From a virus, in IMG/VR virus record IMGVR_UViG_3300018018_000009, positions 1-56,246 of that record: 56,246 nucleotides of DNA. One strand, written 5' to 3'. The translations under genes and the position numbers were made by a program. The first letter of the stretch is position 1; every line of letters starts with the position of its first letter. The notes beneath the pieces are model-generated. The model ran no database searches. It was not told the origin of the DNA and was given only the letters and a program-made list of their open reading frames with translations. This document shows, piece by piece, positions 739 to 33,718 of this stretch.

Positions 739-1017
739 ATGGATAATGAAAATGCTCGTGAAGCATGGCTATTGCAGATAGAAAGAACTAAAAATGGTTA
801 TATACTTTTAGGGAATGATGGCCTGAGTGTTATTGAAGAAGATGATCAAGATGAACTTAAAGAACACGAGAAACTACTTTGGGCAGTCATGGAATATTTT
901 GGTTTTCAAGGAAGCAAACATGACAAGCAACGTTTACGAGTCATGCGAGAACAACAAGAGATTGGAATAGGAGACCAGACAATTAGGAGGGATAATGAAA
1001 GTTCAGGATGTAATTAG
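739..1017 (+). CDS. Hypothetical acidic protein
   Basis: 92 residues starting at ATG 739, chosen over the in-frame ATG at 676 because AGGGAGGG lies just upstream and the longer form would overlap the previous gene. It starts with a helix (NAREAWLLQIERT), has a short Gly-containing beta-like segment, an acidic stretch (IEEDDQDELKEHEK), and a basic C-terminus. The C-terminus overlaps the next gene by 23 bases. No known family recognised. Confidence 0.65.
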   Translation: MDNENAREAWLLQIERTKNGYILLGNDGLSVIEEDDQDELKEHEKLLWAVMEYFGFQGSKHDKQRLRVMREQQEIGIGDQTIRRDNESSGCN

Positions 1018-1435
1018 CATCGGTGATCTTTATAAGGCCGTAGGTCATAAATATTTTAGCAAGAAACCAATCGGAGGAGGAAAATACAGATACAAGTATG
1101 TTTACCCTGAAGTTGTTTCAGGCAAGGAAGTCCTGGCTGCAGGTGAAGGCAAACCATCCCAGGCAGCTTTAACAAAGGTTAGAGAAGAAAAGAAAGTAGA
1201 GAAGACTTTGTGGGATCACTTAAACAGAGCAAAGACAGAAATCAAAGAAAAGTTTGGAAAGTTTGATATAGAACCGAGTCATGGAGGCCATGCTGTCATC
1301 CTAAAGTTTAAAGACGGAGCCAAGGCTTTAGCCCATATGTCAGGGCGAACTAAAGATGATAAGCTTTTGATTGATACCGAGTGGCGAAGCGAACCTTATG
1401 TTCCAAAGCAACCCACATTTTATGTGAAAGAATAA
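995..1435 (+). CDS. Cassette-bearing small protein with leader and KYRYKY motif
   Basis: 146 residues, strong AGGAGG RBS. Residues 1-15 match the leader seen on many proteins here (M-K-V-Q-D-V-I-S-I-G-D-L-Y-K-A), and residues about 18-40 carry the second recurring cassette (KYFSKKPIGGGKYRYKYVYP), also present in the 2230-residue protein at 34852. The middle is helical and Lys/Glu-rich; the C-terminal 55 residues look like a small beta domain (GGHAVILKFKDGAKALAHMS). No enzyme family recognised. The shared cassettes suggest a virion-packaged or co-delivered protein; that role is an inference. Confidence 0.75.
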   Translation: MKVQDVISIGDLYKAVGHKYFSKKPIGGGKYRYKYVYPEVVSGKEVLAAGEGKPSQAALTKVREEKKVEKTLWDHLNRAKTEIKEKFGKFDIEPSHGGHAVILKFKDGAKALAHMSGRTKDDKLLIDTEWRSEPYVPKQPTFYVKE

Positions 1436-1437
1436 AT

Positions 1438-1896
1438 ATGACAAAATATAATAGTCTGGGAAAATTTGGAAAAGATTATTCTAATAAACGTTATAATGAT
1501 AGAAAAGATGACCCTGAGTTCAAAGAACTTAAAAGTAATCAATCAAAGAGATTTTATAAAAAGCACACTACTCGAGTTCTTGAAAAATGTAAAAAACGGA
1601 GAGATGATTTAAGAGACCAGGTTTTAAAGGCCTTTGGCCCATGGTGTGCAAATCTTTGGAATTGTCCGATTCCGAGTGAAAAATTGGATGTGCGAAGCTT
1701 GCAAATAGATCATATCAATAATGATGGTTATGAAGATAGAAAAAAGTATAAAGGTAGAGGAGCAGCATATTATAAAAAAGTTTTAGCTCATCAAGAGGAT
1801 TATCAACTTCTGTGTCCTTACTGTAATTGGATGAAGTTTATTAAACAGGATAAAACTAAGGCTGGAAAGAAGTCTTGGGTTCTGAGGAGAAAATGA
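1438..1896 (+). CDS. HNH endonuclease
   Basis: 152 residues from ATG 1438, just after the previous stop; the in-frame ATG at 1381 would lie inside the upstream gene. The N-terminal half is basic and helical. The C-terminal half has an HNH (beta-beta-alpha metal) arrangement: a LQIDHINNDG segment with the catalytic His, then LLCPYCNWMK with the Cys pair of the structural zinc knuckle. A second Cys pair upstream (CANLWNC) could complete the zinc site. HNH proteins of this size in phages are usually free-standing homing endonucleases or nicking enzymes that spread into intergenic sites. The ATGA overlap with the next gene shows it is embedded in the operon. Confidence 0.82.
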   Translation: MTKYNSLGKFGKDYSNKRYNDRKDDPEFKELKSNQSKRFYKKHTTRVLEKCKKRRDDLRDQVLKAFGPWCANLWNCPIPSEKLDVRSLQIDHINNDGYEDRKKYKGRGAAYYKKVLAHQEDYQLLCPYCNWMKFIKQDKTKAGKKSWVLRRK

Positions 1897-2105
1897 AAGC
1901 AGTAATTCAAACCATTGACGAGTTTATAAAATCAAGAACTAAAGGTGCTAAAGACAAATTTAAAAGAAGACATAAGCCTAGTCCACCTGTTAATCTTGGT
2001 GAAAAGATAACAGCTTCTTTAGGCCAACAGATAAAAGAGCTCGAAACTCTGCAAGAGCGGAACAGAAGATTAGATAAACTCTTATCAGAGCAGGATAAAG
2101 AGTAA
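1893..2105 (+). CDS. Short leader-bearing basic helical protein
   Basis: 70 residues from ATG 1893 (GAGGAGAAA just upstream; ATGA overlap with the HNH gene). Residues 1-14 (M-K-A-V-I-Q-T-I-D-E-F-I-K-S) are another copy of the recurring leader. The rest is basic (KDKFKRRHKP) and then a heptad-like coiled coil (IKELETLQERNRRLDKLL). Like the small internal proteins of T4, it consists of little more than a leader and a basic helical body, so a packaged DNA-associated protein is plausible. No sequence family is recognised. Confidence 0.65.
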   Translation: MKAVIQTIDEFIKSRTKGAKDKFKRRHKPSPPVNLGEKITASLGQQIKELETLQERNRRLDKLLSEQDKE

Positions 2106-2122
2106 AAGAAAGAGGCGTCAGC

Positions 2123-3007: not shown

Positions 3008-3008
3008 C

Positions 3009-6000
3009 ATGGAACAGATACAAGCTGTAAAGAAAACAATTTATGGGACTCCTGTTTACTTTGTTAAATCCTCTGAAGGATCAAAGAAGGCATGGGAAAC
3101 AAGAAGATATGGCGGAAGTCGCAAAGACCTTACTAAGATAAAGCAAGATCATGAAGACCTAAAGAACAAATACAAAGACCTTATAGAATGGAGTAGAACA
3201 GACTCATGGGAGAGGCCAGAGTTCTCTGGTTCGCCCGAGACCGTAAAGAAGTTCATAGCAGACGTTCAAACTCATCATACGAAGATGGTCGATGCTTTTG
3301 GAAAGAACAAAACGAACATAGGTATCGAGGAGGATTTAGGAAGAGCAACCAAGAACCCTAATGTTCAAGGATCGTTTGGTAATGCTTTAAGTGCTCTTTA
3401 TGGGATGGAAGATAAGATAAGATGGCTTAACCGCTATCTCCCAAAGGAACAAGAGAAAGGGTGGAAAGGCAAGGAAAGATCAGAGGCAAGCTGGAAGGAG
3501 CTCATGTCAAAGTCATCTGAAGGAGCAAAGAAAGCATGGCTAACAAGAAAATATGGCGGAAGTCACGCAGCATTAGAAGACAAGAAGTCTAGAGAATCTT
3601 TCAAGAAAGAGTTTTCGCTCAGTGATGTTGAAGGCGGTTCTAAAGATGATGTTCAGAGGCTTCACGAATCTTTAAAAAAGATAAATGAAAAAATACAGAT
3701 TGATGGGAGAGGTAAACTATCCTTCAGTATTAAAGCCCCTCTTCAAAAGACTTGGTTCGGAGATTTCGATGAGGGAAATGATACCATAGAGATACATCCG
3801 AAACATCTTGAGAAAGTTGAACATGAGTATCTTCATTTTGTTTTTAAATACAGATTTGGAAATCCTATGAGAATAGGCCCAGATCATTACGATAAGTTTG
3901 GAAGTAAAAGATTTAGTATTCTTGACCAAAAAGAAATACCCGATTATGAATCGTTTAAAAAGGTAAAGTCAAAAGGATCATACGAGGATTATCATAAATT
4001 TGCAAGGGCGTTCGGTCGAAAATTATTTAAAAAGATAACTCCTGAAGGTTTAGAAGATTCATTTGATGCATTTATTAAAAAGGTTGCAGATAATAAATCT
4101 TTAGATGGGGGGAAGAAAAAAGCGTTTACAGAACTTCTTCAAATATATAGGAACTTTTATACGAAACCTGGTATCTTAAAAAAGATGCAAGATTTGGTAG
4201 ATCTCCCTGTTTATGCATTAGAACCTACAGAACTCTTTGCGAGAGCTGGGGAACTTTACATGCATGGAACAACTTGGTCTTTGGATGTTATCGAAGCTGA
4301 TCTTACAGGAGAACAGGATTTAAAAGAGGACAAAGCCAAGAACGTAGCTTCAACTAAATTATTTCAAAGTCAGATTAAAGGGTGGGGAAACAAATATCTT
4401 AAAACCGGAGTTATGAGTAAATCTCTTTTTGTTATCTTTGAGAAATCTTCGGAGGGGGCAAAGAAAGCTTGGTTGACAAGGAAGTTCGGAGGAAGTCACA
4501 AAGGAGAAGAGAAGCCAAGTCTTAAGGGTCTTTCTTCTAAAGCTATTTTAGAGATGAGTCCAGAGGATCGTGAGAAATATCTCAAAGACATGGATTCATG
4601 GAATGAAAAGTTTGGCATTCCTAAAAAGATTGAGGTATCCGAAGCCAACATTAACAGATTTGTCGATAAACCAGATGAGGCTATAAGAGAGTATAACAGC
4701 ATCCAGCAGAAGTATGAGATAAAAAAGAAAACAAGTGTTAAGAAAACAAAGAAGTCTAAATCTAAACCTAAACCATTTAAGATGCAACTGGTCATTCCTC
4801 ATGAGGAGACTGAAAGGAGAATTCATGAACATCTTCAACAAGCGAAAAGAGAATCGTCAACGACACGTTACTTGGAAGGACGTACTCACGATGTGGACAT
4901 ATGGACAAAAGAGGATTTATTGGCTGCAGTGCCTAAGTCTCCAAAAGGTTCTCAATTCTATGCCAAAACAAATGTCCAAAACATCAAGCGGGTCTTAGAG
5001 TTTAAAAAACCAAATGAAGTAGGTGGGATTCATACAATCGTTGTTCTCGAGAATGGTAAACCAGTTTATCAATACATTGATACCACAACAGAGAAGAACT
5101 CAAGGAAGAAATTTGTACGATCAAAGAATGTCGAAAAGAATATTGGGGAGATACGAGCCTTCTATAAGAAAGGAATGGGCAAAACTGGATATGACAAGCA
5201 GATGGGTACTATCCTTTCATTGATTGACCTGTATACTATTCGGGTAGGAAGCAAAGCAGATGTTGATGAAGGTGTGAGGAAAGTTGAAGACTTAAAGAAT
5301 AGAGCTCTTATTAAAGCGCCAAAAGATATAGCAAGAGTACCATATGGGCTACCATATGATCGAAACACGGTTTATTACGTTTTTATTAAAGATGGGCAAA
5401 GGCTTATCGGCCCATCCGAGAGAATGGATGAGATCAGCGATGAGATCAACGAAGCCAGGAAGATAAAAGATAAAGCTAAAGTAGAAACTCTTAAGCAAGA
5501 GAAGAAAGACCTTGTTAAACCAATGCCCGAGGATTGGAAGGAAGTTTATAAGTTAGGACACTTTGGAGCAACCCAGTTAGAGGCCAGGCATGTCAAGATC
5601 GAGCCCGAGTATAAAGGAGTTGGAACTAATTTTGGAAGTGTTGTTCACCTTGATTTCATTGGTAAATCTGGGGTTCATTGGGAGTTCCCAGTTAATGATA
5701 CTGGAATTGCAGAAGCTTTAGCCGATCTGTCCAAAGGTAAGTCCGGGCGTGATCCTATATTCCCGGATGTTAAATATCAAAAGGTTACGGGTTTGCTCAA
5801 AGATAATTGGAAGTGTCTTGCAAAAGATTTTAGAACTTATCATGCAACAAAAACATTTGCTGAAGCAACTAAAGATTTTCCAGTCCCAAAGACAGAGCAG
5901 GAACTCAAATCAATAGAAGGTCAGATATTGGAAAGAGTTTCTGGTTTGCTCTGGAACACGAAGGGAATGGCTAAGAAGTCTTATATTGACCCTGCTGTCT

Positions 6001-6473
6001 ATGGAGCGTGGAGAGCAGGCTTATTAAAAGTAATGATGGAAGCTGCCCCGATTAAGAAGTCATTGCTTTTTAATGTGATCTTAGAGAAATCAGTTGAAGG
6101 CACAAAGAAAGCATGGCTAACAAGAAAGTATGGAGGTTCCCACAGAGAGCAGAAAAGCTACTATACAACTTCTGGTGCTATGACGATGAAGGAGTTTATA
6201 GAAACTGAAGTTGAAGATAGAGGGAACTATCCTTTATCTGAGGTTAGAGGCTGGATTAAAAAGTATGGTATCAAAAGAGATCAGCAAATTATGTGGGTAT
6301 CCCCCAAGAAGTGGAGAGCTTATAGCTATACTCTTCCGGCAGAGGAAATGGATTCTGCAAGAGATGTAGATGAATCTAAAATGGATGTTACCGAAGTCAA
6401 AGGTAAAGAAGGTTTTATAATTCCAGAGTCAGACGATGGAAGCGAAGGTTTTTTATTTGTTTTCAAGAATTAA
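3009..6473 (+). CDS. Polyvalent protein: HExxH metallopeptidase plus type IB topoisomerase
   Basis: 1154 residues from ATG 3009, one base after the previous stop (an ATG at 2961 would overlap it). Domains in order: an N-terminal AKKAW cassette (about 20-40); a second cassette near 166-186; a zincin domain with HEYLH at H272 and a downstream P-T-E-L-F-A-R-A motif supplying the likely third zinc ligand; a third cassette near 470-497; then a type IB topoisomerase domain from about 595 to 1010. The latter shows DLYTIRVGS, GATQLEARHVKIE, a GKSGV segment, KDFRTYHATKTF and the catalytic tyrosine in KKSYIDPAV (Y992), matching the poxvirus/bacterial small topoisomerase IB pattern. A fourth cassette (about 1018-1045) precedes a 100-residue unknown C-terminal domain. 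Such multidomain layouts are known as polyvalent proteins, thought to be delivered with phage DNA. The ATG at 3504 inside it has a good Shine-Dalgarno (AAGGAGCTC), so an internal start is possible. Confidence 0.85.
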   Translation: MEQIQAVKKTIYGTPVYFVKSSEGSKKAWETRRYGGSRKDLTKIKQDHEDLKNKYKDLIEWSRTDSWERPEFSGSPETVKKFIADVQTHHTKMVDAFGKNKTNIGIEEDLGRATKNPNVQGSFGNALSALYGMEDKIRWLNRYLPKEQEKGWKGKERSEASWKELMSKSSEGAKKAWLTRKYGGSHAALEDKKSRESFKKEFSLSDVEGGSKDDVQRLHESLKKINEKIQIDGRGKLSFSIKAPLQKTWFGDFDEGNDTIEIHPKHLEKVEHEYLHFVFKYRFGNPMRIGPDHYDKFGSKRFSILDQKEIPDYESFKKVKSKGSYEDYHKFARAFGRKLFKKITPEGLEDSFDAFIKKVADNKSLDGGKKKAFTELLQIYRNFYTKPGILKKMQDLVDLPVYALEPTELFARAGELYMHGTTWSLDVIEADLTGEQDLKEDKAKNVASTKLFQSQIKGWGNKYLKTGVMSKSLFVIFEKSSEGAKKAWLTRKFGGSHKGEEKPSLKGLSSKAILEMSPEDREKYLKDMDSWNEKFGIPKKIEVSEANINRFVDKPDEAIREYNSIQQKYEIKKKTSVKKTKKSKSKPKPFKMQLVIPHEETERRIHEHLQQAKRESSTTRYLEGRTHDVDIWTKEDLLAAVPKSPKGSQFYAKTNVQNIKRVLEFKKPNEVGGIHTIVVLENGKPVYQYIDTTTEKNSRKKFVRSKNVEKNIGEIRAFYKKGMGKTGYDKQMGTILSLIDLYTIRVGSKADVDEGVRKVEDLKNRALIKAPKDIARVPYGLPYDRNTVYYVFIKDGQRLIGPSERMDEISDEINEARKIKDKAKVETLKQEKKDLVKPMPEDWKEVYKLGHFGATQLEARHVKIEPEYKGVGTNFGSVVHLDFIGKSGVHWEFPVNDTGIAEALADLSKGKSGRDPIFPDVKYQKVTGLLKDNWKCLAKDFRTYHATKTFAEATKDFPVPKTEQELKSIEGQILERVSGLLWNTKGMAKKSYIDPAVYGAWRAGLLKVMMEAAPIKKSLLFNVILEKSVEGTKKAWLTRKYGGSHREQKSYYTTSGAMTMKEFIETEVEDRGNYPLSEVRGWIKKYGIKRDQQIMWVSPKKWRAYSYTLPAEEMDSARDVDESKMDVTEVKGKEGFIIPESDDGSEGFLFVFKN

Positions 6474-6496
6474 GATCGACCTACAAAGAAGGTTAT

Positions 6497-6678: not shown

Positions 6679-6687
6679 AGGAATAGA

Positions 6688-7236
6688 GTGTATTACGTCA
6701 TCTTAGAGAAATCGAGTGAGTCAGCAAAGAAAGCGTGGGAGACCAGGCGAAGAGGTCTTGGCAAACAAAAGCCTACAAAGAAACAATCTGAGAAGAAATC
6801 TGAAGCTGAGTCGCTGGCGAGAGCTAAAAGAATTATAGCAAAATACCCCACATGGGAATCTTATCATGAATCCCAGAAGGGCACGAAGTATAAAGATTTC
6901 ATCGGTAGAACTCAAGTCGTAAGAGATGCTGAACACGACAAACGCAATTCAAGATATATGTGGGAAGCAGCAAAGCAATGGGTTGATGCAGGTGGAAGCC
7001 CGGCAAAGAAATCAGCTATCAAATGGGATAAAACTCTTTCTGTAGCCCCGGGAGGAAAAGGTTATTTCTATACAGCAAACACTCCGAGAGGAAGAGTTTG
7101 GGTTGTATGGGATAGGGTCAACAAGAAGTGGAAAGTAGATCATGATTCTGGTAAGCCAAGTCATGAATCTATAAAACACGAACGTTTCAAAACTGCCGAA
7201 GAGGGATTGAAGGCCGTGGCTAAGTGGCTTGAATAA
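6688..7236 (+). CDS. VILEKS/AKKAW cassette-tagged protein
   Basis: 182 residues from GTG 6688 with GAGGAA upstream. It begins with one of the best copies of the tag: M-Y-Y-V-I-L-E-K-S then SESAKKAWETRRRG. Residues 30-60 are a Lys/Glu-rich linker; residues about 60-182 form a compact domain with a WEAAKQWVDAGG helix and a beta-like segment (GRVWVVWDRVNKKWKVDHD). No family recognised. The layout of tag, linker, then single domain matches a passenger protein carrying an N-terminal signal. Confidence 0.75.
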   Translation: MYYVILEKSSESAKKAWETRRRGLGKQKPTKKQSEKKSEAESLARAKRIIAKYPTWESYHESQKGTKYKDFIGRTQVVRDAEHDKRNSRYMWEAAKQWVDAGGSPAKKSAIKWDKTLSVAPGGKGYFYTANTPRGRVWVVWDRVNKKWKVDHDSGKPSHESIKHERFKTAEEGLKAVAKWLE

Positions 7237-10179: not shown

Positions 10180-10389
10180 ATGAGCACTCTTGAAATAAAA
10201 TGTTCGATTTGCGGTGAAAATGTGGTATGGATTAGCGATATAGGCACTTCTAATGACCTATTTCGTGACCATTTGAAAACTCATAAAGAGCATGACGTTG
10301 AAACCTTATACCCTGCGACATTTAAAAATATGAAAATGATGGGATACTTTGAAGCTCCTATGGTCAGAAGGGTAATAAGGACAAGCTAA
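10180..10389 (+). CDS. Small C2H2-like zinc finger protein
   Basis: 69 residues from ATG 10180. CSICG (Cys8, Cys11) is followed by DHLKTHKEHD, giving a C2H2-like spacing, so a single zinc finger is likely. The C-terminal half is basic. It shares its last base with the start of the metallopeptidase gene that follows. Possibly nucleic-acid binding; no named family. Confidence 0.62.
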   Translation: MSTLEIKCSICGENVVWISDIGTSNDLFRDHLKTHKEHDVETLYPATFKNMKMMGYFEAPMVRRVIRTS

Positions 10390-12584
10390 TGCTTTTTAAT
10401 GTTATTGATTTAGGAAAATCAAAGTCATCTCATGAAGGCATGATCTTGGTGCCAACAGTTATTAATCTTCGTGGAAAGCAGGTTACAGTTGGCTATTGGA
10501 GATATCCAGAGGGAGTTAAAGGGCCTAAAGGAACCCGCAAGCCAACTATAAAAGTTCCCCGGGAACCGGTTCCAGAACCTAAGACTTCTTACGAAAAGAA
10601 AATATATGATGAGGCAGTTAGGATTCAAGAGACCGTTGAGGCCGCAGAAGATAAGTTAGATCAAGCTAAGAGAGAATTAAAAAAGATCAAGTCCCCGGAA
10701 GCTGGAAGCGAACATGCCGTCTCTTTAGTTCGTCAAGTTCACGAACTTGAAAGTCTTCTTAGTGAGTCTAAAGCAATAAAGACAGAGCTGAAATTAAATA
10801 GAATTCATCTTGAAGAGGAGTTATCAAAAAAGTTTCCAAAGTTTTCAAGAGAAGTTGGTGCAGGGGAGCATGGAGTAATAACTCATAAACCAGGATACGA
10901 CATATATGTTGATCCAGACTCTGAACAGTTGATTTTAGTTTATAGATATCCAAAAGTTATAAAACATGAAACTCATCAAGAAATTGCTGGGCTCACGAAA
11001 GTTCCTGATCTTGTTGCCAGGGATATAACTTCTAAGGAAGTTAGAGACAAAGATTTTAAAGTTTTAGCAAACACAGTATCCTCAATGCTTGATAAAAGAG
11101 GATGGGACTTTACTGTTGATTCGGCTGGAAGACAAATAAGAATTACAGGATATGCAGGTGGTGGGGTAACAAAGCATATCATTGATCTGAATGAAGCAGA
11201 GGAGAAATGGAGATTAAAAAAGGGACTCCCGGGGTTAGTTGCAAAGAAAGTTACTATAATGATGAGCGGTCATCCCTACCAAGGAGTCAGATGGGTTAAT
11301 CCAAATCCTAAAACTGAATGGCGAAGAATTTTTATAGACAAATACAATCTTGGAGGATTCGGATCAGAGCTTGGATTTAGCCCAGACGTTACAAAGAAAA
11401 TAGATAAGGCTTTTGATCATCTTAGCAAAGCTTTAGTTGTTGATGGCAAAGGAGAATTAAAGATAACTGTTGGGCCGGAGATAGAAGGCGTAGAGAATGC
11501 TGAATACTTTACCGGTAAACATATTATACAGGTTTATGGAAAAGATAATACCGAAAGCTTGGCGCATGAGTATGGTCATTGGATGTTTGATGCCAATATT
11601 CCTGACTTTCCATCGGTTTTTCCGAAGTCTTGGGATAAGGCAGATGTTATATCCTGGAAGAGCAAAGTAGAGAAGGTTGCAAAGACTGAACCTATCTTTG
11701 ACCTTGTTTCTAAAGTTGTTGATTTCTATAAAAAGAATCTTTATGAGTTTAAAGAGTTTAGTGATCGATGGGCTGCAACTCAACCAGACCCAAAAGAATT
11801 TGGGGATTCCATTAGGATGTATCTCTTTACTCCTCAGGAAATATTTGCCAGGGCTGTCAATGCTTATGTGGAGCAGGATATTTCAAGATCGTTCTTTACA
11901 GAACTTGAAGACGATCCTGCCTACTGGTCGATTGTCAATTCGTGGGGAGCCAAGTATCTTAAGACAGGAATTGTCAAAAGCTTAGTAGAGTCATTTACTC
12001 GTGTTTCCCGAGGAAAGTTTCAAAAGGTTAAAGAGTTTTTTAGGAGGGGAGAAGAGAGATTAGAGGATCGTAACATTAGAACTTTTATTAAGCAACGTGA
12101 TAAGCTACCGGATAAATTTAAGCCTTACGTTACTCCTTATACATTCGATGAAATAAAGAAAGGAAAGTTTAAAGTTTTTCTTGTAGCTCACAATACTGCA
12201 GGCGTACTTGTAAAGCCGGATGGAGAAATTGCTAATCTTTTTAGTCTTAAAAAAGGAAACGGCAAGCTTGCTCATAAAATAGCGCATGAGAATGGTGGAA
12301 CATGGGGATATTGTTTTGATGGAAAACTTGTGAAGTATTATAAGGAGTTAGGATCACCAGAATTTCATCGAGAGCCTAATTGGGAAAAGGGCAAACCTGA
12401 TATAGTCTTCACAGGATATAAAAAGGATGTTATGAAAGCCTTAGACAAATTAAGAAACGACAAAAATATTAAGGCAGCCAAGGAGCGTTATAAAGAACTC
12501 AAGGCAAGGCTTGAAGGTACTGAGATTGATTATGCCAAGCTTGAGGACGATATGTTGGAAATGATGGGAGAACCTACAGAATAA
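10389..12584 (+). CDS. Polyvalent protein with HEYGH metallopeptidase domain
   Basis: 731 residues. It starts with a leader copy (M-L-F-N-V-I-D-L-G-K-S), followed by a short module (LVPTVINLRGKQVTVGYWR) related to one in the 2123 protein. Residues about 65-145 are a coiled coil. The zincin domain spans about 300-530, with HEYGH at H393 and a downstream FTPQEIFARAVNAYV motif supplying the likely Glu ligand; it ends in WGAKYLKTGIVKS, the same closing sequence as in the 3009 and 29737 proteins, so the three are paralogous modules. The C-terminal 190 residues form a separate domain (KVFLVAHNTAGVLVKPDGEI) of unknown type. The role is probably virion-delivered proteolysis; this is inferred from domain type only. 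Confidence 0.78.
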   Translation: MLFNVIDLGKSKSSHEGMILVPTVINLRGKQVTVGYWRYPEGVKGPKGTRKPTIKVPREPVPEPKTSYEKKIYDEAVRIQETVEAAEDKLDQAKRELKKIKSPEAGSEHAVSLVRQVHELESLLSESKAIKTELKLNRIHLEEELSKKFPKFSREVGAGEHGVITHKPGYDIYVDPDSEQLILVYRYPKVIKHETHQEIAGLTKVPDLVARDITSKEVRDKDFKVLANTVSSMLDKRGWDFTVDSAGRQIRITGYAGGGVTKHIIDLNEAEEKWRLKKGLPGLVAKKVTIMMSGHPYQGVRWVNPNPKTEWRRIFIDKYNLGGFGSELGFSPDVTKKIDKAFDHLSKALVVDGKGELKITVGPEIEGVENAEYFTGKHIIQVYGKDNTESLAHEYGHWMFDANIPDFPSVFPKSWDKADVISWKSKVEKVAKTEPIFDLVSKVVDFYKKNLYEFKEFSDRWAATQPDPKEFGDSIRMYLFTPQEIFARAVNAYVEQDISRSFFTELEDDPAYWSIVNSWGAKYLKTGIVKSLVESFTRVSRGKFQKVKEFFRRGEERLEDRNIRTFIKQRDKLPDKFKPYVTPYTFDEIKKGKFKVFLVAHNTAGVLVKPDGEIANLFSLKKGNGKLAHKIAHENGGTWGYCFDGKLVKYYKELGSPEFHREPNWEKGKPDIVFTGYKKDVMKALDKLRNDKNIKAAKERYKELKARLEGTEIDYAKLEDDMLEMMGEPTE

Positions 12585-22983: not shown

Positions 22984-24080
22984 TGACAGAACCTGTTAGG
23001 CGTTGGGATGATTGGAGATGGCAGTTAAGAAATCGTATTACGACTAAAGAAGAATTAGAGAAATTAATTGAACTTATCCCTGAAGAAATAAAAGGGATAG
23101 AATCATTGCAAGGTAAAGGTATGGGGTTAAACATAACGCCTTACTATGCTTCTTTAGTTGACCCGAAGTCTCCCAACGATCCTATAAGAAGAACCGTTGT
23201 TCCAAGGATTGAGGAGACAATTATCAAGCCTTGCGAGATGGAAGACCCTTTAGCTGAAGATAGGATGAGTCCGGTTCCAGGGTTAGTCCGTAGATATCCA
23301 GATCGGGTTCTTTTGCTTGTAACAGACCATTGTGCGAGCTATTGTCGTTATTGTACCAGGCGGAGACTGGTAGGTCACAAGGAAAGACCAATAACAAAGA
23401 CTGATTTTAAAGAGGTTGTTCGTTGGCTTAAGGAGCATAGAGAAATAAAGGATGTTCTTATATCAGGTGGTGATCCTTTGACTTTAGAAACAACAAAGTT
23501 GGAGGACTTTTTAAGAGACCTCTATGCTATACCTCATATTGATTTAATTCGCATAGGAACGAAAGCTCCTGTGACTATGCCTATGAGAATAACATCGAGT
23601 CTTTGTAATACTTTGAGAAGTTATCATCCTTTGTTTATCTCAATAAATTTTATTCACCCAAAGGAGATAACTGATGAGTGCAAGGAGGCTTGTATAAAAC
23701 TTGCGGAGGCTGGGATACCGTTAGGAAGTCAAACTGTTCTTCTTAAAGGAGTCAATGATGATGTTCCCACAATGAGAAAGCTAATGCATGAACTTCTTAA
23801 AATCAGAGTCAAGCCATACTATATTTATCAGTGTGATCTTGCTCAAGGAACAGATCATTTTAGAACTCCTGTGTCTACAGGTATAAAAATTATTAATAAG
23901 CTCCGTGGATTTACAACAGGATTTGGAGTACCAACTTATGTTATTGATGGCCCCGGAGGTCTTGGAAAGATTCCAGTTTCGCCAGACTATGTTGTAAGCA
24001 GAGATGAAAAGAAAATTATTCTAAGAAATTTTAAAGATAAGACATGCGAATATCCGGAGGTTGAAAATGAAAGTAATTAG
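22983..24080 (+). CDS. kamA: Lysine 2,3-aminomutase family radical SAM enzyme
   Basis: 365 residues, coupled to the previous gene (TAATG). The radical SAM [4Fe-4S] motif is C117-A-S-Y-C121-R-Y-C124, followed by the SAM-binding glycines ISGGDPLTL. The PLP-lysine region (DGPGGLGKIPV) and the substrate-contact segment (YIYQCDLAQGTDHFRT) match lysine 2,3-aminomutase, which converts L-lysine to L-beta-lysine; the EF-P-modifying relative EpmB is the main alternative. All key residues are present, so it looks active. No partner such as YodP/AblB acetyltransferase is adjacent; an ATP-grasp-like and an AdoMet decarboxylase-like gene follow within 5 kb. Rare as a phage gene to my knowledge. Confidence 0.88.
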   Translation: MTEPVRRWDDWRWQLRNRITTKEELEKLIELIPEEIKGIESLQGKGMGLNITPYYASLVDPKSPNDPIRRTVVPRIEETIIKPCEMEDPLAEDRMSPVPGLVRRYPDRVLLLVTDHCASYCRYCTRRRLVGHKERPITKTDFKEVVRWLKEHREIKDVLISGGDPLTLETTKLEDFLRDLYAIPHIDLIRIGTKAPVTMPMRITSSLCNTLRSYHPLFISINFIHPKEITDECKEACIKLAEAGIPLGSQTVLLKGVNDDVPTMRKLMHELLKIRVKPYYIYQCDLAQGTDHFRTPVSTGIKIINKLRGFTTGFGVPTYVIDGPGGLGKIPVSPDYVVSRDEKKIILRNFKDKTCEYPEVENESN

Positions 24081-24871: not shown

Positions 24872-25028
24872 TCTTATAAAGATTCTTAAGCTTGAATGTT
24901 TGATATGCGGTACTGTCTTTGACTTGGAGACCCCGACAGGTTTTATAAGATGGCAGTATTGTCCTGCATGTAAGAACTCCGGGAAGTTTAAGCAACTTGG
25001 AATGACAATAAAAGAGGAGAAGAAATAG
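24864..25028 (+). CDS. Small zinc-ribbon protein
   Basis: 54 residues from ATG 24864 (GGAGGGAACATA upstream). CLICG and CPAC pairs separated by about 21 residues form a zinc ribbon. It overlaps the preceding gene and shares its last base with the next start (GTG). Confidence 0.6.
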   Translation: MADLIKILKLECLICGTVFDLETPTGFIRWQYCPACKNSGKFKQLGMTIKEEKK

Positions 25029-26350
25029 TGAGAGCAGTTATAAGAAGACCCCAATCTGAATCATATATTATTTTGGAAAAGGCCAAGAAGACGCCTTCAA
25101 AGAAAGTTCTTATTTGGGACTGCGATTATGGGACAGAACTTGCGGCCAGATTTGCTAAAGATGGACATGATACTCTTTATTATACGGAGTGGCCTGAGTC
25201 CCATTCCCATTTTAATAAGTTTGCCGTCGGCTTAGGAATGGATGGCATTAAGAAGATTAAGCATTTCTTTAAATACTACAAAGATGTTGATTATATTATT
25301 TTTATGGAAACGGGACGTGGAGACTTGTGCAACGATCTTAGAAAAGAAAAAATTGCTAATCCTGATTCCTCTTTACCTTATATCTTCGGTGCTGGTCTCG
25401 GTGAGAAGTTAGAACTGAAGCGTGCCTGGGCCAAAGAGATTCAAAAGCAGGTGGGACTTCCAGTCGCACCTTATAAGATAATTAAAGGAGTTGAAGGAGT
25501 TATTAACTATCTGAAGAAGAATCCTGGGAAGTGGATTAAACAGGATATCTTTAGAGGAGATAAAGAAACTTTCTATGCTGAGGATGAATACGGGGCAAGA
25601 ACAGAACTTAATTATTTGCGTCCCAAAATCGGGCCGTTTGAAGAAACGTATGAGTTCATAGTAGAAGACCCGGTCAAAGATGCTGTAGAAGCTGGTTGGG
25701 ATTTATTTTTTAATGGTAATGATTTTCTTAAGCCTTACTTATGGGGATATTGCCAAGACTGGTTTTATGTTGGCAAATTTACCGATAAAATGCCTCCTGT
25801 ATTGGAGGATGTGGCTGTGAGAATAAAACCTATCCTTCAAGAGTTGAATTACAGAGGAATTATATCAATAGAATGCCAAGTTGTAAAAGACGGCACAGGA
25901 TTTGTAACCGATTGGACTACAAGATTTCCTTTGCCGTTAGGTTTTGCTTATGAATACGGCTTAAAGAACTTTTCCGATGTCATGTTTGCGGTTGCCGAAG
26001 GCAAAGATATAGAACTTGACATTAAGAACAAGTATATTGGTTACATGGAAGTTCAATCTATGGATGTTCAAGATAGTTGGCTTAAAGTAACCTTCCCAGA
26101 GAAGTATAAAGATAATATCAAATTAAGAAAGCCGACTAAGGTTGAAGGAAATTACTATGCTATCCCGACCATCGATGAAGTTTTATGTGCTGTAGTTGAT
26201 TCTAATTCAAATATGAAAAATATGTTTGAGAGGATTTGTGATATAGGAACACAAATTAAAGCATCTGGATGTGATGCTGGTCAAGCTTCCGATGCTTACG
26301 GAATTTATGAAGAGATAAAAAAAGGGAAGAAGAGGGGGCTTGATTTCTAA
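25028..26350 (+). CDS. ATP-grasp-like ligase, VILEK-tagged
   Basis: 440 residues from GTG 25028 (AGGAGAAG upstream). Residues 11-21 carry the tag (S-Y-I-I-L-E-K-A). A Rossmann-like N-domain (KVLIWDCDYGTELAARFAKD) is followed by a probable ATP-grasp domain: GLPVAPYKIIKG, KWIKQDIFRGDKETF and, late, NYRGIISIECQVV plus TDWTTRFPLPLG, which resembles the metal/ATP-binding end of PurD-like enzymes (carboxylate-amine ligases). The exact substrate is unknown; the true PurD glycine-ligase context is absent. Neighbouring aminomutase and AdoMet decarboxylase-like genes hint at amino-acid or polyamine ligation, which is an inference. Confidence 0.65.
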   Translation: MRAVIRRPQSESYIILEKAKKTPSKKVLIWDCDYGTELAARFAKDGHDTLYYTEWPESHSHFNKFAVGLGMDGIKKIKHFFKYYKDVDYIIFMETGRGDLCNDLRKEKIANPDSSLPYIFGAGLGEKLELKRAWAKEIQKQVGLPVAPYKIIKGVEGVINYLKKNPGKWIKQDIFRGDKETFYAEDEYGARTELNYLRPKIGPFEETYEFIVEDPVKDAVEAGWDLFFNGNDFLKPYLWGYCQDWFYVGKFTDKMPPVLEDVAVRIKPILQELNYRGIISIECQVVKDGTGFVTDWTTRFPLPLGFAYEYGLKNFSDVMFAVAEGKDIELDIKNKYIGYMEVQSMDVQDSWLKVTFPEKYKDNIKLRKPTKVEGNYYAIPTIDEVLCAVVDSNSNMKNMFERICDIGTQIKASGCDAGQASDAYGIYEEIKKGKKRGLDF

Positions 26351-27090
26351 TGATAGTCTATGTTGATGACCGATTAATGAAAGCTGACCGTAGCCATGTT
26401 GCCTTTGAAAGAACTGTTAAAGGCAAGCAACAACATATCAAACAAAAGGGTTCGAAGAAAGAAGAAGAGACTGAGCAAAAAAATAAAAAGCCTAAAGGCG
26501 AGCAGGCCAGAACCGAAGCCAAAGGGATAGTCGATAGTATAGGAAATACTATGAAAATATTTAAACAGTCTGAAGGGATGTGCGGGCCGACGAGTGTTAG
26601 CATGGCATTGACAAAATTCAGAAAAAATTATTCTCCGGAACAAATAGCCAAGATTGCCCACTCTACGGCTTCGGAAGGAACAGATAGCGGTGAGTTGGTA
26701 AAGGCAATTAAATCTGTTGGTATAGATGTTGTTGAATATAAAAATTTAAGTAGGTTACATGCCTTGCATGTTCTTAGGAATCATACCAAGAATGGAGAGC
26801 CTTGTATCGTATCTTGGCTTAAAACAAAACTCGTATCTTCAAGTGAGTCCAGTATAAAGGGGTCAGAAGGGATGAAGCCTGGTTTTGAAGAAGTCCCGGA
26901 CATGAAGACGATATCGAAAAAGCAAGCAGAAGAAGCAGAGCATTATTCAGTTGTTAAAAGTGTAGACGATAAGTATGTTCATATGCTTGATCCGTTGGAA
27001 GACAAAGAACAATCACTTCCAATTAAATATTTTTTGGATAGATGGTGGGATTCAGAGGATAAGAGATGGTTCCTGGTCTTAACAAAATAG
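26350..27090 (+). CDS. C39-like (papain-fold) peptidase
   Basis: 246 residues, start overlapping the previous stop. A charged Lys/Glu linker (about 20-60) leads to a papain-like domain of the peptidase C39 type: SEGMCGPTSVSMALTKF gives the Gln-x-Cys region (Cys near residue 77) and EHYSVVKSVDDKYVHMLDP gives the catalytic His and Asp. C39 peptidases usually cut leader peptides after a double Gly; several cassettes here contain R-x-G-G-S-H, so cassette processing is a conceivable but unproved function. Confidence 0.72.
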   Translation: MIVYVDDRLMKADRSHVAFERTVKGKQQHIKQKGSKKEEETEQKNKKPKGEQARTEAKGIVDSIGNTMKIFKQSEGMCGPTSVSMALTKFRKNYSPEQIAKIAHSTASEGTDSGELVKAIKSVGIDVVEYKNLSRLHALHVLRNHTKNGEPCIVSWLKTKLVSSSESSIKGSEGMKPGFEEVPDMKTISKKQAEEAEHYSVVKSVDDKYVHMLDPLEDKEQSLPIKYFLDRWWDSEDKRWFLVLTK

Positions 27091-28323: not shown

Positions 28324-29082
28324 ATGGGAAGAGAAGTTAAATGTTTTATGTTAGAACCGACAGATCGAGTTAGAAGGCATCTTCGAAGATTTGTATCTTT
28401 TAAAGTCTCGCAAGCTGACCGAGAATGTAAAGTAGCTGAACATGGCTATCATCAGGCACGACAAATGATTGAAGATGCACCAGCTCAGATGACCAGAAGA
28501 ATTATTCAAACAGAGAACGGAATAAAAGAAGTAGGCGATCCTATCTATATTGAATGCGAACAGCCAGGAAGATTTAGAGTTTTAGAATTTGTTGGAATAT
28601 CGGGATATACAGGGCATCAGGGCCTCTCTGGTGTTTGCAATGCTGATGAAACCGATCACCAAGTTTATTCCGGAAAGGAAGATCCGAGATGGCCATGGCA
28701 CTGCCCATGTGGTTATAAGTTTACTCCTGAAGATGAATGGCAGGTGTTTACGAATCTTATCTACAAGCGGAAGGATACCGGCGAGTTGATGACATTGCAA
28801 GAGTCTCCTCCCGGGGCTATGTGGGATGCCGATTGGATGCATGACCTAATCGAGTATTACGGTAGTGATCATAGAGGAGAGAGATTGGACGATGGCATGA
28901 TTCTGGTCGTTAAAACTCCTGCTGGGGAATGGCTGATTGATGGGCCGTCGAGCGACAAACCTTCTAAACGATGGACAAGAAGTGGAGTTCCTCCACTTAT
29001 AACGGTTCAAGGTTCTATTGGAATTGGAAGTCCGCAGAAATATCATGGGATGCTTATTGAAGGAGTTTTGAGAGATGTATAA
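28324..29082 (+). CDS. Conserved phage protein of unknown function
   Basis: 252 residues, directly following the M14 gene. The second half (PPGAMWDADWMHD; DDGMILVVKTPAGEWLIDGP; WTRSGVPPLITVQGSIGIG; YHGMLIEGVL) matches a conserved but uncharacterised protein often found in tailed phages. A short G-x-S-G-Y-T-G element (GISGYTGHQGLSG) interrupts the middle, as in the GYSG-repeat protein. The CPCGYKF segment may contribute to metal binding. Confidence 0.62.
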   Translation: MGREVKCFMLEPTDRVRRHLRRFVSFKVSQADRECKVAEHGYHQARQMIEDAPAQMTRRIIQTENGIKEVGDPIYIECEQPGRFRVLEFVGISGYTGHQGLSGVCNADETDHQVYSGKEDPRWPWHCPCGYKFTPEDEWQVFTNLIYKRKDTGELMTLQESPPGAMWDADWMHDLIEYYGSDHRGERLDDGMILVVKTPAGEWLIDGPSSDKPSKRWTRSGVPPLITVQGSIGIGSPQKYHGMLIEGVLRDV

Positions 29083-29608
29083 GTTTGTTATTTTAGAAAA
29101 ATCTAAGGACTTTCCAGGAGGCTATTACTATATAGACCTTGACAAGACGCTCGCATATCATAAAACCGAATGGGGGGCAGATGTCATAGGTAAGCCACTT
29201 CCTAAGATGTTGAAAAAACTTAAGGGCTTATTGCGGAATGGAAAGAAGATAAAGATTTTCACTGCAAGAGCTACCGATAAAAAAGCTGTTAAAGAAATTC
29301 AAGCTTGGTTGAAGGAAAATAAATTACCCCGCTTTGAAGTTACCAATATAAAGGGAACTGATGTCATTGAGATATGGGATGATAGAGCAAGACAAGTTGA
29401 TCCTAATACTGGAGAGTTTACAAAAGCGCAGGGTGGATACGGGGGCTCTCGAGTTCCTTTGATTGGATTAGGCCTACCAGGTTCTGGACAGTTTCGTTCT
29501 CATAAATTGGGGAGATCAGAACGGAAGAGGTTAGCTAAAAGAAAACGTATAGAGCGAAAGAAAGAACGGAAGGAAGATATAGAAGCATATGGCGAAGCTC
29601 TTGACTAA
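29075..29608 (+). CDS. HAD-family phosphatase, VILEKS-tagged
   Basis: 177 residues. Residues 1-10 are the tag (M-Y-K-F-V-I-L-E-K-S). The HAD core has YYIDLDKTLAY (catalytic Asp nucleophile and second Asp), GKKIKIFTARATDKK (motif II Ser/Thr) and TDVIEIWDDRARQVDPNTG (acidic motif), as in phage polynucleotide-kinase/5'-nucleotidase-like HAD proteins. The basic C-terminal tail is RKRLAKRKRIERKKER-rich. Possible substrate: nucleotides or nucleic-acid ends. The tag suggests packaging in or delivery by the virion. Confidence 0.75.
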   Translation: MYKFVILEKSKDFPGGYYYIDLDKTLAYHKTEWGADVIGKPLPKMLKKLKGLLRNGKKIKIFTARATDKKAVKEIQAWLKENKLPRFEVTNIKGTDVIEIWDDRARQVDPNTGEFTKAQGGYGGSRVPLIGLGLPGSGQFRSHKLGRSERKRLAKRKRIERKKERKEDIEAYGEALD

Positions 29609-29756
29609 TTATGTCATTTTGAAAAAGGCTGAGAAGAAGTTACCAGATCATAACTCTATGCAATTTCACAAGGAACTTTTTGAAGTAGAAGATGATCTGA
29701 TGGATTACTTAGACACATTGGAGAAAGAACCAAAGCATGAGGCTCGTAATTCTTAA
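29589..29756 (+). CDS. Short VILKKA-tagged protein
   Basis: 55 residues from ATG 29589, overlapping both neighbours. Residues 8-15 carry the tag (Y-V-I-L-K-K-A), then a short helical, acidic tail (ELFEVEDDLMDYLDTLEKE). It is little more than a tag plus helix, comparable to the 1893 protein. No family. Confidence 0.55.
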   Translation: MAKLLTNYVILKKAEKKLPDHNSMQFHKELFEVEDDLMDYLDTLEKEPKHEARNS

Positions 29757-31569
29757 ATCAAGCGAAAGTGCACGTAGGGCATGGGAAACAAGAAGATATG
29801 GAGGTTCTCATACAACCCTATCGACCGAACGCTCTGAATATTACAAAGAAAGAGAAAAGCTTGACAAAGAGGTTTTTCTTAATGAGCTTCCAAAGTTTAG
29901 GGAAGAACTTAACATAAAAAAGTTTTATACAAAATTTCCTAAAGTGTCTTCTCAGATCGAAGAGAAGTTTCGAACTATTACTGAAAGTTACAGAAGCGGT
30001 GGTTTAGATGACTTGGGTGCTAAACCAGAAGAAGTAAGAGAGAAGATGCAAGTTGTTAAAGATGAAATAAAATCGTGGGGCGACAAACTTCAATTTAATG
30101 GAAGAGGTAGACTGTCTATTAAAGTCGGCACCATACCAAAAAGAGGAAGACATAAAACCTATGGTATGTACTACCCTGGGATTCAAGTTTTAGAAGTGGA
30201 TCAAAGATACAAAAATTCTATAGCTCATGAGTATGCTCATTTTATTTTTGATGACAATGGATGGGAAGATAGCTACAAAGATAGTTTAGTTCATGGGAAT
30301 TTCGATGAGGCTTATGAATTTGGGTTTACGAATTTTTTAGAGAAATTTTCTCAAGATATGGAATTTGTTCCCTCTGACATAAGTTCTGCAGGCACAGCTG
30401 CTACAATTAAAAATCAAGGGAAAGCACTTATAGAACTTTTCGCTCAGCTAAAAGATTTTTATAAACTTCCAGATGTTATGGAAAAATTTAAGAAAAGTCA
30501 AGACCCTCCTATCATTTGGGCGTCTACTGAGGCTTTATCGGATAAGCAAAAGCTTACTCGAGAACGGATTGAACGGACGTTCGCCAGAGGAGTTTATAAA
30601 AGAGTTCAGAATCGTATGAAGTATCTATTTCGTCCAACCGAAATATTTGCAAGAGCTGTTGGGTCATATGTATCAGAGGATTTTATTTCTAACCCGGTTG
30701 AAAAAGATGATAGATACAAGGCAATTGTAAAAGCCTGGGGTGATAAGTATCTGAAGACTGGTATTGTGAAGAGTTATGTGATTCTTGAAAAAGCCCAGAT
30801 ACAGATTAAGCCTTCTTTTAGGCATACGGCTTCTGGTAAGATAGTTCCTGTCAAAGGATTTACAGTTGAAAGGGAAACTTTTGAGCATGCCGTTCTTGCC
30901 GATGAATTTTTCAAATCACTTAAGGAGATTGAAGGATCAGATTGGCAATTTGAACCCGGCGAAGTTTTTGATATGGGTGATAAAATAAATGTTGAAGTTA
31001 GATTGTGGGACCGAAGTAAGAATATCACAGAACTTGAACCTTATAGAGCAAAGGGAACTTCTTTAACACGCTATAAAAAGATGTCTGGATACATTGGTCG
31101 TTTTGAATTGAATTTTCTTAAGAATGGGAAAGATGTGTATCTATCATCTTTATTTTTAAAAGACGAGTGGCAAGGTAAAGGTGTTGGCAATGATTTAATG
31201 AAGCGAGCTATAGACTTTGGAATTTCTAAAGGCTTCAAAAGTTTTGAACTCTTTGCAAATGGGGATGTCGGAACTTATGCGTGGGCTATCCAAGGATGGG
31301 ATTTTGTTAAGAAAACAGAGAAACAAGATTTGCTTGGAGACTTTTGTAAATGGCTAAAGAAAAAATATAATGTAGAGAAAAATCCTCTGGATTTTCCTCA
31401 TGCTTGGAATATAGCAGCGTTTAGAATAGGAGATGAGAAAGTCGGAAAAAAATTTATGACTGGAGATGGTCATAATGATTTCTGGGAAGGCGCTCTTAAC
31501 GTTGGTAGCAAAGGCTACAAATTGTTTAAGGAATATCATAGATTAAGGTTACTAAGGAAAATGAGTTAG
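29737..31569 (+). CDS. Polyvalent protein: HEYAH metallopeptidase fused to GNAT acetyltransferase
   Basis: 610 residues. N-terminal tag M-R-L-V-I-L-K-S followed by SESARRAWETRRYGGSH. Zincin domain about 115-345: HEYAH at H164, the FRPTEIFARAVGSYV motif, and the shared ending WGDKYLKTGIVKS. An internal second tag (S-Y-V-I-L-E-K-A, near residue 346) starts a GNAT N-acetyltransferase domain, recognisable by LFLKDEWQGKGVGNDLMKRA (acetyl-CoA pyrophosphate loop) and DFVKKTEK. So the tag marks the domain boundary here. Targets unknown; host-protein modification and proteolysis after delivery are plausible. Confidence 0.8.
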   Translation: MRLVILKSSESARRAWETRRYGGSHTTLSTERSEYYKEREKLDKEVFLNELPKFREELNIKKFYTKFPKVSSQIEEKFRTITESYRSGGLDDLGAKPEEVREKMQVVKDEIKSWGDKLQFNGRGRLSIKVGTIPKRGRHKTYGMYYPGIQVLEVDQRYKNSIAHEYAHFIFDDNGWEDSYKDSLVHGNFDEAYEFGFTNFLEKFSQDMEFVPSDISSAGTAATIKNQGKALIELFAQLKDFYKLPDVMEKFKKSQDPPIIWASTEALSDKQKLTRERIERTFARGVYKRVQNRMKYLFRPTEIFARAVGSYVSEDFISNPVEKDDRYKAIVKAWGDKYLKTGIVKSYVILEKAQIQIKPSFRHTASGKIVPVKGFTVERETFEHAVLADEFFKSLKEIEGSDWQFEPGEVFDMGDKINVEVRLWDRSKNITELEPYRAKGTSLTRYKKMSGYIGRFELNFLKNGKDVYLSSLFLKDEWQGKGVGNDLMKRAIDFGISKGFKSFELFANGDVGTYAWAIQGWDFVKKTEKQDLLGDFCKWLKKKYNVEKNPLDFPHAWNIAAFRIGDEKVGKKFMTGDGHNDFWEGALNVGSKGYKLFKEYHRLRLLRKMS

Positions 31570-31577
31570 GAGATAAA

Positions 31578-32591: not shown

Positions 32592-32602
32592 GGAGGAATG
32601 TT

Positions 32603-33424
32603 ATGAGTATATTTGAGACGATTAAAGAAGATGTTGTTGGATTATTTGAAAAGAAAGTCCCAAAGAAATTTGGAGGATACGGTTGGATTAAAGATGCTTC
32701 CGATCCGAGAGACTTCAAGTTTGTATCTCCTATAAAGACTCTCCCAAAATCTGTTAACATGAGACCTTATATGCCGCCGATTTTGGATCAGGGAAACTTA
32801 GGAAGTTGCACAGCTAATGCAATAGCAAATGATTTTTATGCCGAGATGTTGAGACAGCTTTCGTTAAAGACTATCAACCACGCCTGGCTTCCGTCAAGAC
32901 TTCTCATTTATTTCAATGAGAGAACTTTAGAAGGAACCGTTAAACAAGACTCCGGAGCCAGCGTACGTGATGGATTTAAAACTATCAACACGCTGGGTGT
33001 TTGCCCGGAAACAGAGTGGCCTTATATTATTAGCAACTTTGCTGTAAAACCTCCGGCAAAGTGTTACATAGATGCATTAAGAGATAAGACAGTTCAGTAT
33101 TTGAGTATACCTCAGGTTCTCACTCAAATGAAGGGATGCCTTGCTTCTGGATATCCATTTGTTTTTGGATTTAATGTCTATGAAAGTTTCGAGAGCGATG
33201 AAGTGGCCAAGACAGGTATTGTACCAATGCCAGTAAAGGGAGAAGCACTCTTAGGTGGGCACTGTGTTTTGGCTTGTGGCTATGATGATTATTATCAAAG
33301 GTTTATGGTTATGAACAGCTGGGGTTCAGGCTGGGGTATTAAGGGATATTTTACAATCCCTTATGCTTACCTGACAAGTGCAAATTTGGCGTCAGATTTT
33401 TGGACAATACGATTGGTATCGTAA
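32603..33424 (+). CDS. Papain-family (C1) cysteine protease
   Basis: 273 residues from ATG 32603 (AAGGAGGAATGTT upstream), not the longer frame at 32561 that overlaps the glycosyltransferase. After a short helical N-terminus comes the C1A catalytic set: PPILDQGNLGSCTANAIAN with the oxyanion Gln and active Cys, GGHCVLACGYDD with the catalytic His, and MVMNSWGSGWGIKGYF with the Asn. The enzyme looks intact. Proteases of this type occur in some phages. The target is unknown: virion processing, cell wall or host proteins. No signal peptide is evident. Confidence 0.85.
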   Translation: MSIFETIKEDVVGLFEKKVPKKFGGYGWIKDASDPRDFKFVSPIKTLPKSVNMRPYMPPILDQGNLGSCTANAIANDFYAEMLRQLSLKTINHAWLPSRLLIYFNERTLEGTVKQDSGASVRDGFKTINTLGVCPETEWPYIISNFAVKPPAKCYIDALRDKTVQYLSIPQVLTQMKGCLASGYPFVFGFNVYESFESDEVAKTGIVPMPVKGEALLGGHCVLACGYDDYYQRFMVMNSWGSGWGIKGYFTIPYAYLTSANLASDFWTIRLVS

Positions 33425-33431
33425 GAGGTTT

Positions 33432-33557
33432 ATGGAACTTATTACATGTCCTATTTGTGGTAATCAGGTAATGTGGATAATTTGGGATGACTATGAAAAT
33501 AGGATTCCTGCTATGTGCATTGACTGTTATGAACTTGAAAGGATGATCAATCTATGA
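33432..33557 (+). CDS. Small zinc-ribbon protein
   Basis: 41 residues from ATG 33432. CPICG (residues 6-10) and CIDC (29-32) give a minimal zinc ribbon. AGAGG upstream. Its stop overlaps the next start (ATGA). Confidence 0.5.
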   Translation: MELITCPICGNQVMWIIWDDYENRIPAMCIDCYELERMINL

Positions 33558-33718
33558 AAAAGGACAATCATAAATTTGTTATTCTAAAGAAGAGCGTATC
33601 GTGCCCCATTTGTGGTAAAGCTAACGCTATACAGATGGGAACCCGGTATAAAAGGGATAATCTTTGGGCCAGAAGATTCCGTTGCTCTAAGGGTCACGTC
33701 TTTGAAGAAATTCAATAG
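33554..33718 (+). CDS. Small VILKKS-tagged zinc-ribbon protein
   Basis: 54 residues from ATG 33554. The tag F-V-I-L-K-K-S at residues 8-14 is followed by CPICG and a single C near residue 44 plus His 48 (C-S-K-G-H), so the zinc site is C2 plus C/H. The combination of tag and zinc ribbon is unique in the window. Confidence 0.55.
   Translation: MKKDNHKFVILKKSVSCPICGKANAIQMGTRYKRDNLWARRFRCSKGHVFEEIQ

Follow-up and report, generated by a model that had tools for sequence, protein, structure and literature searches.

The window analyzed here is a 56,246-nucleotide stretch of phage DNA, positions 1 to 56,246 of the IMG/VR virus record IMGVR_UViG_3300018018_000009, in which many unrelated proteins encoded upstream of the capsid gene begin with a short hydrophobic leader of the same kind. 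The leaders end in a site that we write PHI-x-K↓(S/A), where PHI is L, I, V, F or M and the arrow marks the proposed cut. The window was compared with a sister phage, IMGVR_UViG_3300032401_001693 (loci L042, L091, L092, L100, and L102; capsid 75%), and with a near-identical, longer contig of 76 kb, IMGVR_UViG_3300038425_000083 (locus L089). The window capsid protein (46842) is homologous over its full length to those of SPO1 and Lysinibacillus phages (41-47%) and of Staphylococcus phages (about 27-30%), a feature shared with the Herelleviridae (SPO1/812 relatives), the family to which the phage may belong. The portal, MuF protein, head maturation protease, and scaffold of the window were recognized by PHROGs. 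IMG/VR queries with the window protease and the 29737 protein returned the near-identical contig, one chance match, and nothing else, the capsid query found no match in bacterial or archaeal genomes, and polyprotein 2961 had no match among named phages.

A sequence-only reading had reported a shared leader on about fifteen unrelated proteins, and translation bore this out, since all 15 listed sites (15/15) showed a short hydrophobic leader, then K, then S or A. The leaders, all on the + strand, are MKVQDVISIGDLYK↓A (995-1036, followed by the basic segment GHKYFSKKPIGGGKYRYKY), MKAVIQTIDEFIK↓S (1893-1931), MKVQVISLDEEFEK↓S (2240-2281; the sister leaders are MKQVYVVSLDEEFEK↓A), VYYVILEK↓S (6688-6711, GTG start), MLFNVIDLGK↓S (10389-10418), MELRVFSVDELLK↓A (12626-12664), MRRGKVPGEYYVILEK↓S (15284-15331), MAIKGIVRTLDEIKK↓S (16289-16333), MTLLFHVIDLQK↓S (20314-20349), ...ESYIILEK↓A (25028-25081, GTG start), MYKFVILEK↓S (29075-29101), MAKLLTNYVILKK↓A (29589-29627), MRLVILK↓S (29737-29757), and MKKDNHKFVILKK↓S (33554-33592). 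The leaders of the 15284 and 25028 proteins start 8-12 residues into the protein. An internal copy placed at 13407 by the same reading is real, although its true span is 13409-13444 (+ strand), about 2 nt away, where it reads EIITLDEALMEK↓SK inside the 12626 protein. Additionally, we found two N-terminal leaders absent from that list on the + strand: MEQIQAVKKTIYGTPVYFVK↓S (3009-3068) on the polyprotein encoded at 3009-6473, and a possible leader MIVYVDDRLMK↓A (26350-26382) on a peptidase C39-like protein. A leader-like match in G012 proved to be a spurious open reading frame and was rejected.

The consensus proposed earlier describes the VILEK class well (6688, 15284, 25028, 29075, 29589, 29737, and 33554, with VIDLGK at 10389 and VIDLQK at 20314, as well as VILKK). 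A second, SLDEEFEK-like class has the form x-h-x-h-D-E-x-h-x-K (1893, 2240, 12626, 16289, the internal copy at 13409, and loosely 995). The element common to every leader is PHI-x-K↓(S/A). An N-terminal site of this form was found in 16 of the 54 genes within positions 1-34000, against 4.65 ± 2.0 expected from within-N-terminus shuffles (0/2000), and a stricter pattern of leader plus site was found in 10 genes against 1.16 expected (0/2000 shuffles); with 4.65 still expected, individual members of the set may in a few cases have arisen by chance. On the tail side (48300-56246), none of the nine genes (0/9) carried an N-terminal site, and in 11 relatives the 119 genes that lie downstream of the one for the capsid held 9 sites against 6.3 expected, which was not significant. 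A DNA pattern for the VILEK class gave nine matches in the near-identical contig and five in the sister contig, all on the gene strand and all between the terminase and capsid genes, and the reversed-pattern control gave 0 matches in both contigs.

Most of these leaders stand at the start of a gene, behind a good Shine-Dalgarno site, as would be expected if the shared N-terminus were a genetic relic, left by a recent duplication of gene starts or serving as a translation-regulating element. However, codon agreement among the leaders (41.7%) was no higher than that predicted from codon usage (42.4%), so that the conserved thing is the peptide and not recently copied DNA. The randomized codons, the in-frame internal copies at domain joints described below, and the conservation of the leader in the sister and in SPO1-like phages make a relic extremely improbable.

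The site at the leader end recurs in the structural proteins of the head. The capsid-protein propeptide (46842-46919, + strand) ends in ELNK26↓A27, which aligns with K24↓S25 of Staphylococcus phage 812, and the 812 capsid chains in PDB entries 9row, 9rox, and 9roz start at S25, directly after VVK24. Similarly, mature chains of HK97 gp5 start at S104, after FNK103. The capsid lysine K26 is invariant in 7/7 aligned capsid proteins, and K-A is kept in 29/29 IMG/VR capsid homologues among the matches listed. The window portal protein (17782-19452, + strand) carries the site DDLSK↓S at 17893-17925, and related portals have LEK↓SE or IMK↓SE close to the N-terminus. A prohead protease is expected to cut its scaffold into many pieces. 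The window scaffold (46049-46744, + strand; phrog_15087) contains nine PHI-x-K-[SA] sites, and the scaffolds of the sister, L055, Exiguobacterium phage vB_EalM-132, 812, and SPO1 contain 9, 11, 14, 7, and 11, respectively, where about one is expected (1.28 for the window; 0/2000 shuffles for each of the six scaffolds). Separately, the C-terminal segment of the scaffold, LLEKAVxDxKIxDSxLFxYEGS...EEExILxSY, was found repeated in two other small proteins of the longer contig (L089:13203-13664 and 15006-15410).

A homologous protease of the S78 (HK97/812) type is encoded beside the scaffold and capsid genes (43970-45517, + strand; phrog_1028, 4.5e-39). It is homologous to 812 Gp94 (BLASTP 7e-19), and the window protein itself had no Pfam match, whereas its 812 and EalM-132 homologues match Peptidase_S78. 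The His (44171-44173) and Ser (44339-44341) expected of Peptidase_S78 are invariant in the protease alignment, as is K165-S166 at the end of the domain; the proteases of related phages start with DIxK↓S, and the window protease also carries an internal EVAPILAK↓SSEGAKKAW (44966-44989, + strand). As another feature of this protein, a copy of the capsid N-terminal arm follows the catalytic domain in the window (GLAAGHDNPASSGGISGSALR), 812, SPO1, and EalM-132, and in 812 the tail of the protease and the capsid chain match at 1e-6.

Because the leader ends match the maturation sites of capsid and scaffold, and because a homologous protease is present, the leaders appear to end in a site cleavable by the head protease that the phage itself encodes. 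This site is the best-supported part of our interpretation and the one held with the highest confidence; the leaders themselves would be cut there. The phage T4 protease gp21 cuts after E at L/I-x-E, and the sequence-only reading had transferred this motif to the leaders, noting an I/L-x-E triad in most of them. ILE, LDE, or IDE is indeed present in many of them. Nevertheless, LDE, IDE, and VDE precede the cut by a few residues, and the triad is missing from the IDLQK, IDLGK, VILKK, and YFVK leaders. In addition, the conserved leader end is K↓(S/A), as at the mature N-termini of 812 and HK97 and at the scaffold sites, and capsid, scaffold, and protease share it. Moreover, the window protease is homologous to 812 S78 proteases and was not shown to be gp21-like. 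A T4-type targeting sequence cut at L/I-x-E is thus very improbable, although the outline of the analogy, entry into the head and removal on maturation, is well supported by the comparative evidence.

The leader had been described as an N-terminal feature, and besides its N-terminal copies it recurs between the domains of polyproteins. Junction copies not listed before were found in the 3009, 10389, 16289, and 29737 proteins, in the 2230-aa MuF protein, and in the head protease. Those in the 3009 protein, all on the + strand, are ELMSK↓SSEGAKKAW (3498-3512), K↓SLFVIFEK↓SSEGAKKAW with a site at either side (4422-4445), and K↓SLLFNVILEK↓SVEGTKKAW (6060-6089), which together with the 4422 junction brackets a topoisomerase IB part. 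Further + strand copies are KTGIVK↓SLVESFTRVSRGK (11961-11978), ahead of a phrog_2563 domain, TTIDDEFDELAK↓TSEGAKKAW (16685-16720), and K↓SYVILEK↓A (30772-30792), before the GNAT-like domain of the 29737 protein. The MuF polyprotein (34852-41544, + strand) has MuF, HATPase, ADP-ribosyltransferase (ART)-like, tRNA nucleotidyltransferase, and HD domains, with junctions at 35467, 37645, 38497, 40018, and 41272, and contains 21 PHI-x-K-[SA] sites, where 7.5 would be expected (0/2000 shuffles). Its ART-like domain is preceded by LLVIEK↓A (37645-37662, + strand). In the sister MuF polyprotein (L042:561-5285), which is likely packaged, a 2H phosphoesterase region gave a weak Acb1-like (anti-CBASS) match (2e-4).

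Comparison with the sister provides what we consider the strongest evidence on the polyprotein joints. The bodies of the window genes 16289, 1893, and 15284 correspond to one sister protein of 329 aa (L091:12781), which has a leader and site at each joint. The sister protein starts with LDEVLEK↓G (MEKGIVRTLDEVLEK↓G in full), where window gene 16289 starts with LDEIKK↓S; its next joint, SLDEAVLEK↓ARTKGAKDK (SLDEAVLEK↓ARTKGAKDKEKRKRK), corresponds to TIDEFIK↓SRTKGAKDK at the start of 1893; and EAVLEK↓SKGGFRLAR (EAVLEK↓SKGGFRLARGEKGEEE) precedes the body that follows YVILEK↓SRRSGGFRLAR in 15284. The reverse was also observed. The sister encodes the ART-like domain, internal to the MuF polyprotein in the window, as a protein of its own that starts MNYVILEK↓S, and the GNAT-like domain that follows SYVILEK↓A in the 29737 protein occurs as a standalone, leader-bearing protein in L055 and in EalM-132, where the leaders of these Herelleviridae-type phages read MELIIDVSK↓A and MYLYINGDNLTK↓S. 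The sister topoisomerase IB is likewise a separate gene, but without an N-terminal leader. These comparisons suggest that the unit consists of leader, cut site, short module, and body, used alone or fused.

Large polyvalent proteins are a known class, predicted to be packaged, and autoproteolysis has been suggested for P1 DdrB (Iyer et al. 2017, PMC5512222). Polyproteins of the window might likewise be split by their own metallopeptidase domains, with the leaders unrelated to the process, and several of them do contain HExxH-like metallopeptidase regions. However, the same joint occurs in small proteins that have no peptidase domain, and it matches the capsid and scaffold maturation sites; we therefore consider self-cleavage improbable. 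The 34852-41544 product, a multi-domain protein with MuF near the portal genes and other effector domains, belongs to the polyvalent/MuF group, and it resembles the multi-domain MuF, ART, and metallopeptidase proteins near portal genes that are predicted to be packaged, although a prohead-protease site at the domain joints was not found described in the available text of PMC5512222.

A strongly basic stretch usually follows the site. Averaged over 25 tagged proteins from the two phages, the charge of the 25 residues after it was +4.4, whereas comparable positions in untagged genes gave +0.37 (p=1e-6). The module KSSEGAKKAWxTRRxGGSH follows the cut in 11 window copies, exemplified in the alignment by SSEGSKKAWETRRYGGSR (3069-3122, + strand), and its DNA pattern gave nine matches and 0 in shuffles. 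The modules vary, including SSEGAKKAWETRRxGGSH, RGPDKKPRKKRTR, AKPYTRTRKGKFERVKGY, and GHKYxxRxPxGxGxYxY, and they can be exchanged: the sister orthologue (L092:9738) of the 12626 protein retains the site as FLK↓AR with a different basic module. DNA binding within the head would be a plausible role for the basic module. The SEGAKKAWxTR module was also found in unrelated phages (L011, L023, L024, L030, and L039), where it follows G/D/N-T and not K, and one of these copies precedes a RelA/SpoT domain. Homology of the SEGAKKAW module to NUMOD3 was considered and rejected, as no Pfam match was obtained at E values up to 10, and a literature search with the string KKAWETRR returned nothing relevant. 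NUMOD3 repeats usually occur in homing endonucleases. A small window protein (42148-42483) consists of such repeats (Pfam 1.4e-11) without a nuclease domain.

These basic modules raise the question of whether the leader does more than supply a cleavage site. It might be only a mask or spacer that is cut later, with entry into the head mediated by the basic modules or by contacts with MuF or the portal. PHI-x-K alone is enough to match the capsid and scaffold sites, and the basic module is conserved adjoining the cut. Against this, the leader upstream of P3 is conserved far past what cleavage needs (the VILEK and SLDEEFEK classes, with codon saturation), and some tagged proteins have no basic module. 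Furthermore, internal copies such as K↓SLFVIFEK↓S are bounded by two sites, which suggests that the peptide cut out has a role of its own. We regard the cleavage-only explanation as possible yet doubtful.

Taken together, the leader is quite likely a portable prohead-targeting propeptide, cut by the S78 protease at PHI-x-K↓(S/A), on both free-standing and fused internal proteins. We infer that the leader recruits its protein and is cleaved, and that the protein is packaged and injected; confidence in the targeting and injection parts is lower than in the site. During prohead assembly, the hydrophobic, partly acidic leader would bring a protein into the core together with scaffold and protease. 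The S78-type protease would then cut after the lysine of PHI-x-K↓(S/A, sometimes G/T), and its own chain, the scaffold, and the capsid protein would be processed likewise. Once released, the protein would in most cases begin with a strongly basic module, remain with the packaged DNA, and presumably be injected. Because fused cargo has this element wherever two domains meet, in many cases flanked by two sites, polyproteins would be split into separate units inside the head.

Several observations weigh against the propeptide interpretation. Only one clearly related sister genome was found (capsid 75%), and PHI-x-K-[SA] is short, so that some individual sites are chance. The PDB chain starts mirror the sequences as deposited, and the 812 site was not found stated in any paper. 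The 29075, 29589, and sister L092:14001 proteins are tagged and have no basic stretch after the cut, and C-terminal copies of the tag (e.g., GRLEK↓SLFVIVEEE) show no excess over chance. Finally, no clear leader was found on the five of nine non-structural virion proteins of Listeria phage CKA15 (mass spectrometry, PMC12282133) that were inspected, which indicates that the tag is not general in the Herelleviridae.

Similar leaders were nevertheless found in other phages. SPO1 gp5.3 starts MDKDILLVIDIEK↓GKSD, proteins of EalM-132 bear similar leaders, and the N-terminal 47 residues of the EalM-132 homologue of gp5.3 were matched in 19 Bacillus phage records. These results suggest that a small form of the system is present in well-known phages and is expanded in the window lineage.

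The leader resembles the T4 capsid-targeting sequence in being a short N-terminal propeptide common to unrelated proteins, where the internal-head location of the window proteins is a prediction. According to the available text of PMC5694885, IPI-III and Alt of T4 carry a short N-terminal propeptide, associate with the core, and are processed by the prohead protease gp21, which also cuts scaffold and capsid; the Alt sites there are ITE and LTE, in line with L/I-x-E, and Alt is trimmed at both ends (PMC5694885, PMC10052503). In contrast to T4, which cuts after E and has a handful of targets, the window phage would cut after K with a protease of the S78/812 type and would have about 16 targets plus the polyprotein joints. 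In SPN3US and phiKZ-type phages (gp245-type protease), many head and ejected proteins likewise have propeptides that are removed in the head, after A/S/G-x-E (PMC5694885, PMC10052503), and paralogues share short N-terminal identity, but as far as the available text of these sources goes, the propeptides mostly comprise 111-254 residues cut after A/S-x-E, and polyprotein joints are not reported. There is also a likeness to capsid maturation in 812, SPO1, and HK97 (Peptidase_S78), with a capsid homologous to those of 812 and SPO1, a protease homologous to that of 812, and the same K↓(S/A) site, yet in these phages the site is known for capsid maturation only, and a cargo tag is not described in the literature found. 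The search for a lysine-ending cargo tag, which covered open-access literature only and is hence weak evidence of novelty, found none.

Other features of the window and its relatives were also identified. A second short shared peptide, RRVIR(T), or RRMLR in the sister, lies at the C-terminal end of several small proteins or close to it (window 10160 and 10366; L089 3513, 13425, 13893, 15384, and 18954; sister L091 2250 and 6763). Its DNA, AGRAGAGTTATAAGA, is mostly conserved too in the window lineage, so that it could act as a peptide tag or at the DNA level. The head gene block also contains a lysine 2,3-aminomutase-like radical SAM enzyme without a tag (22983-24080). In the sister, the portal gene (L091:19533 to L092:2742) has an intein-like insertion of roughly 500 aa, and a papain-like peptidase (L092:6742-8694) matches Intein_splicing (2e-14).

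The wider picture would be an animal-virus-like polyprotein strategy inside the head of a tailed phage, in which a portable, excisable peptide at N-termini and domain joints brings effector domains by the dozen (ADP-ribosyltransferase, topoisomerase IB, tRNA nucleotidyltransferase, acetyltransferase, and peptidases) into the prohead and one protease frees them as separate DNA-binding proteins for joint injection; we give this picture about even chances. If the propeptide interpretation is true, the tag would be a readable label for delivered proteins, and a catalogue of what SPO1-like phages inject could be drawn up from their sequences alone. S78 head proteases, for whose cargo we found no published rule, would gain a cleavage rule open to testing, PHI-x-K↓(S/A), and there would be an alternative to autoproteolysis for the division of large MuF and polyvalent proteins. 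Moreover, one could attempt to load proteins into phage heads with the lysine-ending tag.

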